Made by a program: the position numbers and the translations under genes
Shown: positions 31,043 through 35,324 of the stretch, piece after piece
How positions within the stretch are numbered: position 1 is the first letter of the stretch
Layout: every line of letters begins with the position of its first letter
Notes under the pieces: generated by a model
Database searches by the model: none
Told to the model about the DNA's origin: nothing
What the model saw: the letters and a program-made list of their open reading frames with translations, nothing else
NCBI GenBank assembly: GCA_026126245.1
Contig: JAHCJT010000010.1
Span: forward strand, 1-35,324
From: Alphaproteobacteria bacterium
GTDB lineage: Bacteria; Pseudomonadota; Alphaproteobacteria; Reyranellales; Reyranellaceae
Direction of reading: 5' to 3'
DNA: 35,324 bases

Positions 31043-32206
31043 ATGGCCGATCCGGTCAACATGAACAGCGGCAGCCAGGGCGGCAACGACAACAGGAAGG
31101 GCAATGCCGGCCTGAAGGCGGTGGGATTCGTCGCCGGCGGCATCCTCTTGCTGCTGATCGGTCTGGGGCTGGGCTGGTACTTCTTCTACCGGGTGCAGGT
31201 GAACGTCACGGTGCAGGCGCCACCCGCGCCGCCGCCGCCGCCCGCGTCCAAGCCCGATCCGGCCGCGGTGCGGGCGCTTGAGGAGGCGCTGGAAAAGCAG
31301 AAGCAGAGCAACAAGGCGCTGGAGGACCAGATCGCCAAGTTGCGCGATGCGCTGCAGGGCAACGTTTGCACCATCACCGACCCGCGCGGGCTAGGCATCA
31401 CGCCGCCGGCGCCCGGCGGGACCCCGTCCGGTCCGCAGTCGCCGGCGACGCCTGGCGTCGCGCCCGGGACCAAAGGCACTGCCGTCGAACCCAAGCCCGG
31501 GACACCGCCGACCGGAACCGCCGCGGATCTCGTGCCGGTGCTGGAAAACGCCACCGTCCTGATCCTGGCGCCGACGCAGCAGGGCGGTCTGAGCGCCGGT
31601 TCCGGCTTTTTCGTGACCGCCAATACGGTCGTCACCAACAACCACGTCGTGCGCGGCGCGGTCGACGGCCACGTCTTCCTGACCAGCCGCAAACTCGGCA
31701 CCGTCATGGACGGCGCGGTAGTGGCTGGCGTCGGCGGCGGCACGCCGACGCCGGGCAGCGCCGACTTTGCTGTCGTGCGGGTTTCCGAGGCAGTGCCGGC
31801 GCATATCCGGCCGCTCGGCCTGTCGGTCGAGCCCGGCGCGCTGAAGGACGTCGTCGCGGCCGGCTACCCCGACGCCGTGCTGCGCAACGACCGGAACTGG
31901 ATCGACCTGCTGAAGGGCGATCCCAGCAAGGCGCCGGAACTGATCGTCACCAAGGGCAGCATCAGCGCCATCCAGAACCGCGAGACCGGTCTGCCGTCCA
32001 TGCCGCATACGGCGAATATCTCGGGCGGCAACTCGGGCGGGCCGCTGATCGACATGTGCGGTCGCGTGGTCGGCATCAACACGTTCGTGTCACGCGCCGA
32101 AGCCGGCGCCGGCGGGCTCTTCGCCCTGGGCGCCACGGGCATTTCCAAGTTCCTGCGCGACAACAACGTGGCGTTCGACTGGACCGAGGCACCTTGCGCC
32201 AAGTAG
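31043..32206 (+). CDS. Membrane-tethered trypsin-like serine protease with coiled-coil and Pro-rich linker
   Basis: This 387-residue protein has, in order: a short polar cytoplasmic tail; one transmembrane helix (about residues 26-50, GFVAGGILLLLIGLGLGWYF); a Pro-rich run (60-69); and a coiled coil (about 75-105, LEEALEKQKQSNKALEDQIAKL). A Pro/Gly/Thr linker follows, and then a trypsin-like domain (about 160-385). The triad is clear: His201 in NNHVVRG, Asp241 in SADFAVVR and Ser331 in GGNSGGPL. The protease domain should sit in the periplasm on a stalk. No PDZ domain is present, unlike DegP/DegS. It is convergent with two coiled-coil lipoproteins 31 bases away. I infer a role in processing or sensing cell-envelope proteins, but the substrate is unknown. 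Confidence 0.88.
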   Translation: MADPVNMNSGSQGGNDNRKGNAGLKAVGFVAGGILLLLIGLGLGWYFFYRVQVNVTVQAPPAPPPPPASKPDPAAVRALEEALEKQKQSNKALEDQIAKLRDALQGNVCTITDPRGLGITPPAPGGTPSGPQSPATPGVAPGTKGTAVEPKPGTPPTGTAADLVPVLENATVLILAPTQQGGLSAGSGFFVTANTVVTNNHVVRGAVDGHVFLTSRKLGTVMDGAVVAGVGGGTPTPGSADFAVVRVSEAVPAHIRPLGLSVEPGALKDVVAAGYPDAVLRNDRNWIDLLKGDPSKAPELIVTKGSISAIQNRETGLPSMPHTANISGGNSGGPLIDMCGRVVGINTFVSRAEAGAGGLFALGATGISKFLRDNNVAFDWTEAPCAK

Positions 32207-32237
32207 GGCCTGTGCGGCACGAGCGGGCGCCTGGAGA

Positions 32238-32741
32238 TCAGGACCGGGCGCCGGCCGCCTGGTCGATGGCGCGTTCCAGCAGCTGCTTGCGCTGATTGAG
32301 CTCTTGCAGCCGGCGACGCTTTTCGGCGTCCGCCAGCGTCGGGTCGTTGTTGACCTGGTTGCCCGAGGCCTGCAGGGCGTCCAGCTCCCGCGCGAGGCGG
32401 CGCAACTCGGCGATGTTCTGCCCGCGGGTCGCTTCGGCGGCCGCGAGCTTGCCGCGCAGGCGGGCAATTTCGCTATTGAGTGCCGCGTTCTGGCGTTGCA
32501 GGGCGGCTTTTTCGCCGGCGACCTGCTGGCGTTCGGCGCCGGTCCGGGCGGCGTCGGCCTGAAGCTGCTGGTTGCGCTGCTGCTCGGCCGCCAGTGTGTC
32601 GCGCCGCGCCTGGGTCTGGCGGTCATAGGTGCCGCTGCTGAGCCCGCTGACGCCGCCGAAGAAGCCGCCGCGGCTGGGGTCGTCATTGGTGCAGGCGGCC
32701 GCGCCGAGGACGAGCGCGACAACGAGGATCGGCTTGCGCAT
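32238..32741 (-). CDS. Coiled-coil lipoprotein of unknown function
   Basis: This 167-residue protein has a lipoprotein-like signal (MRKPILVVALVLGAAAC; Cys17 would be lipidated, though the -3 position is Ala, not Leu). A short Gly/Ser stretch follows, then an almost continuous heptad-rich coiled coil (about residues 40-165). It contains EQQRNQQLQADAAR, QVAGEKAALQRQNAALNSEIARLRGKLAAAEA and RRRLQELNQRKQLLERAI. Thus it is predicted to be a membrane-anchored periplasmic rod. I do not recognise a named family. The ATG has GGAGACC upstream. It lies 19 bases after the glycine-zipper protein gene and is probably in one operon with it and with the FGE-like gene. Confidence 0.82.
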   Translation of the reverse strand: MRKPILVVALVLGAAACTNDDPSRGGFFGGVSGLSSGTYDRQTQARRDTLAAEQQRNQQLQADAARTGAERQQVAGEKAALQRQNAALNSEIARLRGKLAAAEATRGQNIAELRRLARELDALQASGNQVNNDPTLADAEKRRRLQELNQRKQLLERAIDQAAGARS

Positions 32742-32760
32742 GCCTGGTCTCCGTCTGGGC

Positions 32761-33492
32761 TCAGCCGGTCTTGGTGATCGCGATGGCGCCGTTCAGCTCG
32801 GCGAGCTGCGCCTCGAGCGCGGCGATCTGGCGGTTCAGCCGAGCGATCTCGGCGTCCATCGCCGCCGTGTTGGCGCCCGGGTTGTCGGATTTGGCCGCGT
32901 TGCGCGCCTGCACGTAGTCGTTCTGCCGTTCGCGCAGGCGGCCGATCGTCTGCTGGATGTGGGCCGCATCTTGCTGGGCGGTCGACACGCGGCGGTCGAG
33001 ATCGGCCTTGGTCGCCTGGCGGGCGTTGTATTCGCCGCGCAGCCGCGCTAGTTCCGCCTTGTCCTGGGCGACAACGGTGCGCGTATTGGCGATGTAGGCT
33101 TCGAGCTTGGCGTTATCGTTGCGCACATCGGCCGTCATCGCGTCCAGCCGCTGGTTCTCGTTGACGTATTGCTCCTTCTTCTTGGCCACGTAGTAGCCGG
33201 CGGCGCCGCCGACCAGCGCGCCGGTGCCGGCGCCGATCAGTGCGCCTGCCGCCCGGTTGTGCCGGCCGGCGGCCAGCGCGCCGATCAGGCCGCCGACCAG
33301 GGCGCCGGCAACCGCGCCCTCGCCGATGGTGCGGTTGAAATCCTCGTTGGCGCGCAGCCGGCGCTGCTCGGGCGTCAGATACTGGTCGTCGGCGTAGGTG
33401 CCACCGGAGGTGACGCAGCCGCCCAGCGTGGCGGCGCAGATCATGGCGGCGATCGTCGATCGCACGGCGCGGGGGCGAAAGACGGCATACAT
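32761..33492 (-). CDS. Glycine-zipper, coiled-coil lipoprotein
   Basis: This 243-residue protein has a lipoprotein signal with lipobox LGGC (Cys about residue 26). A glycine-zipper hairpin follows (about residues 56-101), with repeated small-residue spacing (GEGAVAGALVGGLIGALAAG, then AAGALIGAGTGALVGGAAGYYVA). A long coiled coil runs from there to the end (KKKEQYVNENQRLDAM..., RLNRQIAALEAQLAELNG). Glycine zippers of this kind insert into or pack on membranes, as in the 17-kDa-antigen and OmpA-associated lipoproteins. The start is the ATG at 33492; a GTG one codon upstream is possible. It sits 12 bases downstream of the FGE-like gene and 19 bases before the next lipoprotein gene. It is probably an outer-membrane-anchored structural partner. 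The exact role is unknown. Confidence 0.85.
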   Translation of the reverse strand: MYAVFRPRAVRSTIAAMICAATLGGCVTSGGTYADDQYLTPEQRRLRANEDFNRTIGEGAVAGALVGGLIGALAAGRHNRAAGALIGAGTGALVGGAAGYYVAKKKEQYVNENQRLDAMTADVRNDNAKLEAYIANTRTVVAQDKAELARLRGEYNARQATKADLDRRVSTAQQDAAHIQQTIGRLRERQNDYVQARNAAKSDNPGANTAAMDAEIARLNRQIAALEAQLAELNGAIAITKTG

Positions 33493-33504
33493 CACGAGTC
33501 TCCC

Positions 33505-35097
33505 TCAGGGCAGCGCGATTATGTCCTTGAACCAGGCATCCGGCTGCACACCGGACGATTTCCGGTAGGCCGATGCGTGAGCGGCGACCAGCTTGGCAAG
33601 CGGTTCCAGGTGGGTCGCGCCGCTCTTCTCGAATTCCAGCTTCAGAGTGCCCAACTGCTGCTCGACTGTCGAGTCGTTGAAGTCCTGCGCGATCTGCACC
33701 ACGGTGTCGGCGTAGTAGCGAACGTTGGCCTGCAACGTGGCGTTGAGCACCTTCAGCCGCGCGTCCAGGGCCGTGACGTTCATGCCGGCTTCCTTCTGCG
33801 TGTCGCGGCTCTTCTGCACCTGGTCCAGGAAGCGACGGTCGCTGCGCAGCTTGTCGCCGAGGAAGGCCGCCAGTCGCACCAGGCTGCGCGCGGCGCGGCC
33901 GCGCAGATTGGCTTCCTCGTCGATGCGCTTGGCATACTCGCGCTGCAGCGCCGCCAGACGCGAGCGGATGTCGGCGTCGGTCGTCGCCTTGATGATGGTC
34001 TGCAGCTCGGCCAGCGGATCGCTTTGCGCCACATCGCCCGACCGCAGCGCCTCGGCCTTGGGCAACGCCGCCCACGCCTTCTTGACCGCCTCGTAGCGCG
34101 CCGGTGAGGGAATCACGGGCGCGACCAGGGCGAGGCGAAAGCCGACGGTCGGCACGCGGCGCGGACCGTTGGCGTCGAACGGCAGCAGCTCGTTGCGGTA
34201 CGCCGACCGGACATCGGCCTCCGATGTCTGGTAGTTGCCGCCCTTGATCACGAAGCCGCCGGCCTGGCCGTGCAGGCGCGCCAGCTTGTTGAGGCGAAAG
34301 GGGTCGAGCACGATCTCGTCGACGTTGCCCAGCATGTCGTGCAGGCCGAGCGGGTTGGGCTTCAGGGCGCCGACAAGCTGCAGCTCGCCGTTCGACGATT
34401 TCTGGCTGCGGTACCAGACGTATTTCTCCATGCCGTCCGCCATCGGGAAGGTCTTCTCCTCGAATTCCGACGGCGATACCGCGATGCCGCCGCGGGCGGC
34501 GTATTCCCATTCCGCCTCGGTCGGCAGACGCAGGAAGCCCGGCAGGGCGTCCTCGCGCGGCAGCTTCTCGCGGGCGTTCTTCAGCAGCCATTCGGTGTAG
34601 AGCTGCGCCGCCTGCACGGCGTCGAACCACGTCATGCCGGTGGCCGGCCGCAGGCCGCCGCGGGTCGGCGCGACGCAGGTACCGGCCAGCGCCTTCATCT
34701 GCAGTTCGGTGGTTTCGTACTTGGCCAGATAGTAGGAGCGGCGGCCCTTGTCCCTGGCGTCGCTGAAGGCGCCGTCGATGTAGTCGTAGCGACTGCCTTC
34801 GGCGAAAGCGAAGCGCTCATCGGTACCGCCGACTACGATCTTGCGGTCGGCCAGCGCCGCCTCGTGCGGCACATCGATGCGGCGGAACACCATCGCGCCG
34901 CCACACGGCATGGGCAGCACCAGATCGCCCGACGCGGGTTGCGGATTGTAGAACCGCTCCGCCCAGGGCTGCGGCCTGGACTGGCCGTACACCGGCCCGG
35001 CCAGGGTCAGGACGGCAGCAAGCAGCGCCGCGGCGGCGCGCCAACGCGCCGACTCGCGCCGTGGCACGAAGTTCGTCCGGAATGAGTCCTGACCCAT
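33505..35097 (-). CDS. Secreted FGE-sulfatase-fold protein lacking the catalytic cysteines, with helical C-terminal domain
   Basis: This 530-residue protein has a signal peptide (RRESARWRAAAALLAAVLTLAG, cleavage near VYG-Q). A domain of the formylglycine-generating-enzyme fold follows (about residues 85-325), seen in YLAKYETTELQMKAL, MTWFDAVQAAQLYTEWLL, RLPTEAEWEYAARGG, GLHDMLGN and VGFRLAL. A mostly helical, coiled-coil-like C-terminal part runs from residue 330 to the end. In the FGE core GG-Y-x-C-x4-C the cysteines are replaced (GGNYQTSEADV), and the usual GNVWEW reads GNVDEI. Formylglycine formation is therefore unlikely, and a binding or structural role fits better. The ATG at 35097 gives a normal signal peptide. 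An in-frame ATG at 35151 adds 18 residues; neither start has a clear binding site. It heads an operon with two lipoproteins. Confidence 0.85.
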   Translation of the reverse strand: MGQDSFRTNFVPRRESARWRAAAALLAAVLTLAGPVYGQSRPQPWAERFYNPQPASGDLVLPMPCGGAMVFRRIDVPHEAALADRKIVVGGTDERFAFAEGSRYDYIDGAFSDARDKGRRSYYLAKYETTELQMKALAGTCVAPTRGGLRPATGMTWFDAVQAAQLYTEWLLKNAREKLPREDALPGFLRLPTEAEWEYAARGGIAVSPSEFEEKTFPMADGMEKYVWYRSQKSSNGELQLVGALKPNPLGLHDMLGNVDEIVLDPFRLNKLARLHGQAGGFVIKGGNYQTSEADVRSAYRNELLPFDANGPRRVPTVGFRLALVAPVIPSPARYEAVKKAWAALPKAEALRSGDVAQSDPLAELQTIIKATTDADIRSRLAALQREYAKRIDEEANLRGRAARSLVRLAAFLGDKLRSDRRFLDQVQKSRDTQKEAGMNVTALDARLKVLNATLQANVRYYADTVVQIAQDFNDSTVEQQLGTLKLEFEKSGATHLEPLAKLVAAHASAYRKSSGVQPDAWFKDIIALP

Positions 35098-35176
35098 GTC
35101 GACAACTCGCAGGGTGGGGGAGAAATGTGGACGATTCCGGGGCTCGATCATGGCGATTCGGGGATGGATACGAACT

Positions 35177-35324
35177 TCACGGCAACTTCATCCCGCGTGC
35201 CGCCATCACGCTGCGCAAGCGGTCGGGATAGTCGGTGATCAGCCCGTCGACGCCCCACTCCATCAGACGGGCCATGTCGGCGCGCGCGTTGACGGTCCAC
35301 GGCAGGACCTTCAGGCCCAGCGCC
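35177..35324 (-). CDS. Glycerophosphodiester phosphodiesterase, C-terminal fragment
   Basis: Only the last 49 codons and the stop are in the window. The gene starts beyond the right edge. The visible end reads [21 protein letters not shown] then [15 protein letters not shown]. This is the diagnostic last beta strand and loop of GDPD-type phosphodiesterases (V-x-x-WTVN...GVDGIITDYP), which hydrolyse glycerophosphodiesters to glycerol 3-phosphate and an alcohol. The stop at 35177-35179 lies 25 bases from the longest possible start of the FGE-like gene, so the two may be in one transcript. The localisation cannot be judged without the N-terminus. Confidence 0.85.

Follow-up and report, generated by a model that had tools for sequence, protein, structure and literature searches.

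The window, a 35,324-nucleotide stretch of contig JAHCJT010000010.1 from an alphaproteobacterium of the family Reyranellaceae (GCA_026126245.1), carries four neighboring genes at 31043-35151 that very probably belong to the envelope arm of the SrfABC-Tag system, in which the genes srfABC accompany those of the TagQRST sensor. As the best overall explanation, we propose with moderate confidence that the four genes form a detached envelope arm of that system. The SrfABC-Tag system is a widespread bacterial system, though little understood; SrfABC has been called a virulence factor or a toxin, and it has no agreed function. A check of the open reading frames (ORFs) of the window returned the following features:

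31043-32206, plus strand: membrane-tethered trypsin-like protease with a SrfA-related stalk
31643-31645, 31763-31765 and 32033-32035, plus strand: catalytic codons of the protease, for His201, Asp241 and Ser331, respectively
32238-32741, minus strand: CC2, a coiled-coil lipoprotein with a putative lipobox Cys17, the third lipoprotein, encoded directly 3' of tagQ
32761-33492 or 32761-33495, minus strand: TagQ-like glycine-zipper lipoprotein, starting at ATG 33492 or GTG 33495
33505-35151, minus strand: TagR homologue with an FGE-like domain, its start codon uncertain because the core of the signal peptide sits at about residues 38-58

Positions and strands agree with an initial annotation of this DNA, which had described four adjacent genes for exported or membrane proteins, and so do the gaps that it gave: 12 bases between tagR and tagQ, 19 bases between tagQ and CC2, and 31 bases between the convergent CC2 and protease genes. 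A scan for sigma-70 promoters found none, which is uninformative at ca. 69% GC.

Alignments identify the FGE-fold protein as homologous to TagR over its full length. It is 29-30% identical over about 550 amino acids (E values 9e-62 to 1e-57) to TagR of Pseudomonas-like loci, taken from the four genomes whose TagQ passes the cut-off of the NCBIfam model NF041250, and the alignment is nearly full length, including the helical tail. The order is also shared, with tagR directly upstream of tagQ in both the window and the Pseudomonas loci. The protein consists of a signal peptide, an FGE-like domain at residues 161-341 (Pfam FGE-sulfatase, 102 bits) and an all-helical tail at residues 350-548; the tail is predicted as helical in the structural model as well (mean pLDDT 57), although the models of TagR and of the protease are too low in confidence to be read beyond secondary structure. 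The initial annotation had called the protein cysteine-less. This holds for the catalytic positions of FGE, with no cysteine in the corresponding region (KGGNYQTSEADVRSAYRNEL), but not for the whole chain: by reading, two cysteines lie elsewhere, and Cys83, within an LPMPCGG motif, is invariant in an alignment of 14 TagR homologues. The TagR homologue shares the Pfam domain with FGE (SUMF1) and PvdO-like proteins, but it lacks the cysteines at the catalytic positions and has an added helical tail and the TagR-specific LPMPCGG motif. An active FGE or sulfatase maturase was ruled out by the absence of the catalytic cysteines. Paralogues of TagR that match only its front and FGE-like part occur in g2 and g5 (L027 8825-10465, L028 9428-10972, L032 9146-10135, L035 3573-5027 and L036 8342-9343), with no Tag genes recognized alongside. 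The window's genome also encodes a Ser/Thr kinase with a C-terminal FGE-type domain (L104 370-2436; G000, contig C479), which has no apparent relation to the Tag module.

The glycine-zipper lipoprotein is TagQ-like by profile comparison, and we file it short of equivalog. Its top NCBIfam match is NF041250 (TagQ), at 69 bits and so under the curated cut-off of 300 bits, which was passed by four of the 299 genomes in a survey of the phylum; there, the window's protein was the best match below the cut-off, spanning positions 19-205 of the model. When its profile was compared with the TagQ profile of the Pseudomonas-like loci, the match had a probability of 98.9%. A putative lipobox (L24-G-G-C27) was identified by reading, and Pfam matches place the glycine zipper at about residues 60-106. 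The descriptions of a glycine-zipper lipoprotein and of an FGE-like protein with a helical tail in the initial annotation were accurate. Its remark that it knew of no named system with this set does not hold, however, as two of the proteins correspond to TagR and TagQ and the SrfABC-Tag neighborhood was published in 2013 (PMC3608642). Many Srf-type loci have a gene of the CC2 type directly 3' of tagQ, as does L205, an Azospirillum locus in which srfBC were undetected; none was detected in the tag loci of Pseudomonas that are linked to a type VI secretion system (T6SS). The CC2 profile match is 99.4%, a value to be read with caution, as coiled coils inflate such scores.

The tethered protease has a transmembrane segment at about residues 24-48, a proline-rich linker, a coiled coil (ca. 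73-106) ending in an invariant VC motif with the conserved Cys109, and a trypsin domain (ca. 160-375; Pfam Trypsin_2, 71 bits). As initially annotated, the catalytic triad is intact: His201, Asp241 and Ser331 are invariant in nine homologues, two of which are only 37-38% identical. No PDZ domain was matched, and the chain ends shortly after the trypsin domain. A fold search with the model (mean pLDDT 59) returned only trypsin-fold heads, mostly of the HtrA type, the nearest solved folds to this low-confidence model being DegQ, DegS and Rv3671c. Like HtrA/DegS and MarP-type membrane-anchored serine proteases, the protein thus has a single transmembrane anchor and a trypsin-like head; unlike them, it lacks a PDZ domain, carries a long SrfA-related coiled-coil stalk and falls far under the NCBIfam cut-offs. 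In PADLOC, it matches just the end of the RT-Protease_XI models, presumably their protease part. A profile of the stalk matched SrfA stalks at 15-29 bits, whereas the highest-scoring of 340 shuffles reached -0.7, and in two genomes (L275 and L276) a SrfA N-domain is fused ahead of the transmembrane segment, stalk and trypsin head. Given these fusions and matches, the window's protease is best regarded as a stalk of the SrfA type that bears a trypsin head; in a further SrfA-type protein (L033), the head is a vWA domain.

In other families, all four gene types of the window are found contiguous with srfBC, for example in G685 and G435, and the usual order of the cluster is protease-srfA-srfB-srfC-vWA-tagT-tagS-tagR-tagQ-lipoprotein. 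A TagS profile search of relatives of the window's genome found TagS clustered with TagT, SrfB (PF07520), SrfC (PF10139), a protein of ca. 390 residues and a vWA protein of ca. 660 residues. By reading, SrfB has a DVGGGTTDL motif like that of Hsp70/actin-type ATPases, and SrfC has a P-loop, GPSQAGKS. The vWA protein can be aligned to residues 391-1016 of a Pseudomonas-type PpkA (40% identity, E about 1e-152), and we therefore read it as the periplasmic half of PpkA, its C-terminal 630 residues (40-42% identity), without the kinase. It is present in one copy in each of the nine genomes with the module and in G006, and absent from G005. Among 14 TagR loci from a survey of the class, 11 lie beside srfB/srfC, one lies in a T6SS cluster and two in neither; the order in the 11 is srfB-srfC-(ca. 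390-residue protein)-vWA-tagT-tagS-tagR. This order is also seen in Srf-type loci of, among others, Pseudomonas, Pantoea, Aggregatibacter and Antarcticimicrobium, and other Pseudomonas loci are of the T6SS type (tssM-tagF-pppA-ppkA-tagT-S-R-Q). Clusters of vWA-tagT-tagS-tagR-tagQ were also seen at L034, L184 and L185 with no SrfB/C or T6SS genes detected nearby, and are possibly a third setting of the Tag sensor.

The genes also co-occur. Of 385 genomes surveyed in the class, 22 have TagR, 21 have SrfB and 17 have both (p 8e-22). The protease domain was recovered by its profile in 17 genomes, two weak matches being set aside, and 16 of these have TagR and 15 SrfB (hypergeometric p 1.5e-22 and 2e-20, respectively). 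The genomes in the survey are not independent, so that the count by family outweighs these p-values: all 11 families with the protease domain also have SrfB and TagR. Where protease and srfB share a contig, they are 1.5-4 kb apart in seven genomes, ca. 14 kb in three and 28 kb in one.

Within the window's own family, seven other genomes from three genera (G001, G002, G003, G004, G007, G009 and G013) have tagR-tagQ-CC2 and the protease in the same convergent arrangement, a conservation that argues against chance. Contig ends interrupt it in places, cutting tagR in G013 and, in an eighth genome (G011), stopping inside tagQ. The initial annotation had suggested asking whether the four genes co-occur and stay adjacent across genomes, and both this synteny and the survey of the class answer strongly in the affirmative. 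In genus g3 there was no TagR match, and in the g3 genomes checked (G005, G008, G010 and G021) only the N-terminal transmembrane and coiled-coil part of the protease was found; in G005, this part makes up a protein of 125 residues encoded next to the srf cluster. The window's genome has srfC, the ca. 390-residue protein, vWA and tagT on contig C210, and contig C401 begins in tagS. Three to four tandem SrfA-like genes lie away from srfB/srfC in the window's genus (L133 8384-12374 and L135 7074-12434).

Much of this neighborhood has precedent. An SrfABC-tagQRST-ppkA neighborhood was described in 2013 in host-associated Deltaproteobacteria (PMC3608642), and T6SS-control genes near srfABC were mentioned for Xenorhabdus stockiae (PMC6950479). 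The deltaproteobacterial neighborhood has srfB, srfC, tagQ, tagR, tagS, tagT and a ppkA-like gene in common with the system described here, along with a neighbor annotated as Hap-like that may, as a guess, be a trypsin-type protease. In the window's system, by contrast, srfBC-vWA-tagTS lie apart from tagR-tagQ-CC2 and the protease, the ppkA-like gene encodes no kinase, and CC2 and the SrfA-type protease are recognized as members. None of these features (the CC2 lipoprotein, the SrfA-type protease, the kinase-free ppkA-like gene and the split arrangement) was named in the literature searched, outside of which most subscription journals lie. Thus, the Srf-Tag neighborhood is known, whereas the protease, the third lipoprotein, the kinase-free sensor and the split appear to be new.

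Working from the directly observed gene identities, synteny, co-occurrence, SrfA-protease fusions and missing kinase, we infer a model in which the localization of the proteins, the direction of signaling, the trigger (by analogy with the H1-T6SS of Pseudomonas) and the target of the protease are all provisional. TagQ and CC2 would have their anchors in the outer membrane and would keep TagR on the inner face of that membrane. Upon disturbance of the outer membrane, TagR would act on two partners, the TagST transporter of the inner membrane and the kinase-free vWA protein, the latter step being modeled on the relation between TagR and PpkA in Pseudomonas. The signal would then pass to SrfA-type inner-membrane proteins and on to the cytoplasmic, NTPase-like SrfB and SrfC; that the arm signals to SrfABC seems fairly probable. 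A periplasmic cut by the protease when the sensor fires, perhaps of a SrfA or vWA head, is a doubtful addition, and its target a guess. A wider proposal, evenly balanced or slightly on the uncertain side, is that TagQRST, as a sensor of outer-membrane damage, has a second, kinase-free output, in which a secreted copy of the vWA half of PpkA drives SrfABC as an NTPase-like membrane machine and SrfA-family stalks carry interchangeable periplasmic heads, vWA and trypsin among them. SrfABC loci with a complete TagTSRQ, a kinase-free PpkA half, a third lipoprotein and a SrfA-derived protease would then make up a testable envelope-response system. With a Tag sensor set apart from the T6SS, the presence of TagQRST in a genome is no proof of its use in type VI secretion.

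Several observations weigh against assigning the four genes to SrfABC. In the window's family the sensor genes are not adjacent to srfABC: G002, G007 and G009 have them on the same contig at a distance of roughly 17-37 kb, and several genomes have them on separate contigs. No srfB was found in the window's own assembly, which is 87.7% complete and is the sole exception among the 37 genomes of the family, 36 of which have SrfB. The protease was not found in G653 and G672, though TagR and SrfB are present in both, and we found no experimental work on a Srf-type Tag module in the literature searched. Finally, a T6SS, scored by TssC, is present in all nine genomes with the module, and the T6SS clusters examined in them encode PpkA, PppA, TagF and Fha, so that crosstalk is possible.

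This last observation suggests that the module might instead be a tit-for-tat sensor of the cell's own T6SS, with TagQ and TagR activating PpkA, which would phosphorylate Fha. In Pseudomonas aeruginosa, TagQ and TagR are the outer-membrane components of the sensor through which envelope attack sets off the H1-T6SS (PMC6657622, PMC11881912). The window has tagR and tagQ in the same order as that TagQRST-PpkA-PppA-Fha pathway, and its genome encodes TagST and the periplasmic domain of PpkA; it differs in having no kinase on the sensor domain, an extra CC2, an association with SrfABC and no linkage to the T6SS, the T6SS genes of the window's genome lying on contigs C166 and C459, unlinked to tagQR. 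The T6SS PpkA of the window's genus (L138) has no vWA similarity (best E 0.94), that half being a separate protein of the Srf cluster, and in the relatives read TagST are encoded within the Srf cluster rather than that of the T6SS. In a TagR tree built without nine long-branched rows, whose support is good but not overwhelming, the window's clade joins Srf-type loci of the same class (91/88), apart from the T6SS TagR of Pseudomonas (100/100), and a grouping with the latter was rejected (approximately unbiased test, p 0.021). Moreover, G006 has TagQRST and Srf without TssC, and five g3 genomes have a T6SS without a TagR match. We consider a sensor of the cell's own T6SS improbable on these grounds. 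An assignment as T6SS regulator by co-occurrence alone, nine out of nine but confounded by genus, was rejected: G006, the five g3 genomes, the architecture of PpkA and the tree contradict it.

A sensor of outer-membrane damage shared by SrfABC and the T6SS is consistent with the presence of both systems in all nine module genomes (Srf by srfB, or by srfC in the window's genome). One T6SS cluster, in G572 (L180), encodes a kinase-only PpkA, a separate vWA protein and TagTSR, which shows that the kinase half need not be part of the same protein as the sensor half. The TagR of this locus falls on the Srf side of the tree, which probably reflects exchange between Srf and T6SS systems. Given the lack of linkage to the T6SS cluster in the window's family, we regard a shared sensor as quite improbable. 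The initial annotation had envisaged a new, free-standing scaffold in the periplasm, with the protease cleaving or sensing one of its coiled-coil partners; the tight four-gene synteny across three genera confirms that the envelope module is genuine and co-conserved, but as each of the four gene types is also found within Srf-Tag clusters elsewhere and belongs to that system, the free-standing form is very improbable and was dropped on the TagR/TagQ homology and Srf synteny.

The T6SS clusters of the genera with the module have a composition that looks unusual, in that the genes between ppkA and tssA encode a CHAT-domain protein, a two-partner transporter of the ShlB type and a giant protein resembling filamentous haemagglutinin (L138 11852-19900, L049 89-12200 and L051 5-11145). 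The T6SS cluster of G007 has about six similar short Hcp-like ORFs in tandem near a vgrG-like gene (L052 7542-10669). Directly upstream of tagR and in the same direction lies a glycerophosphodiester phosphodiesterase-like gene, which may be co-transcribed with it; it is seen at L025, L026 and L029 as well as at ca. 35180-35324 (minus strand) of the window, where it is cut by the contig end.

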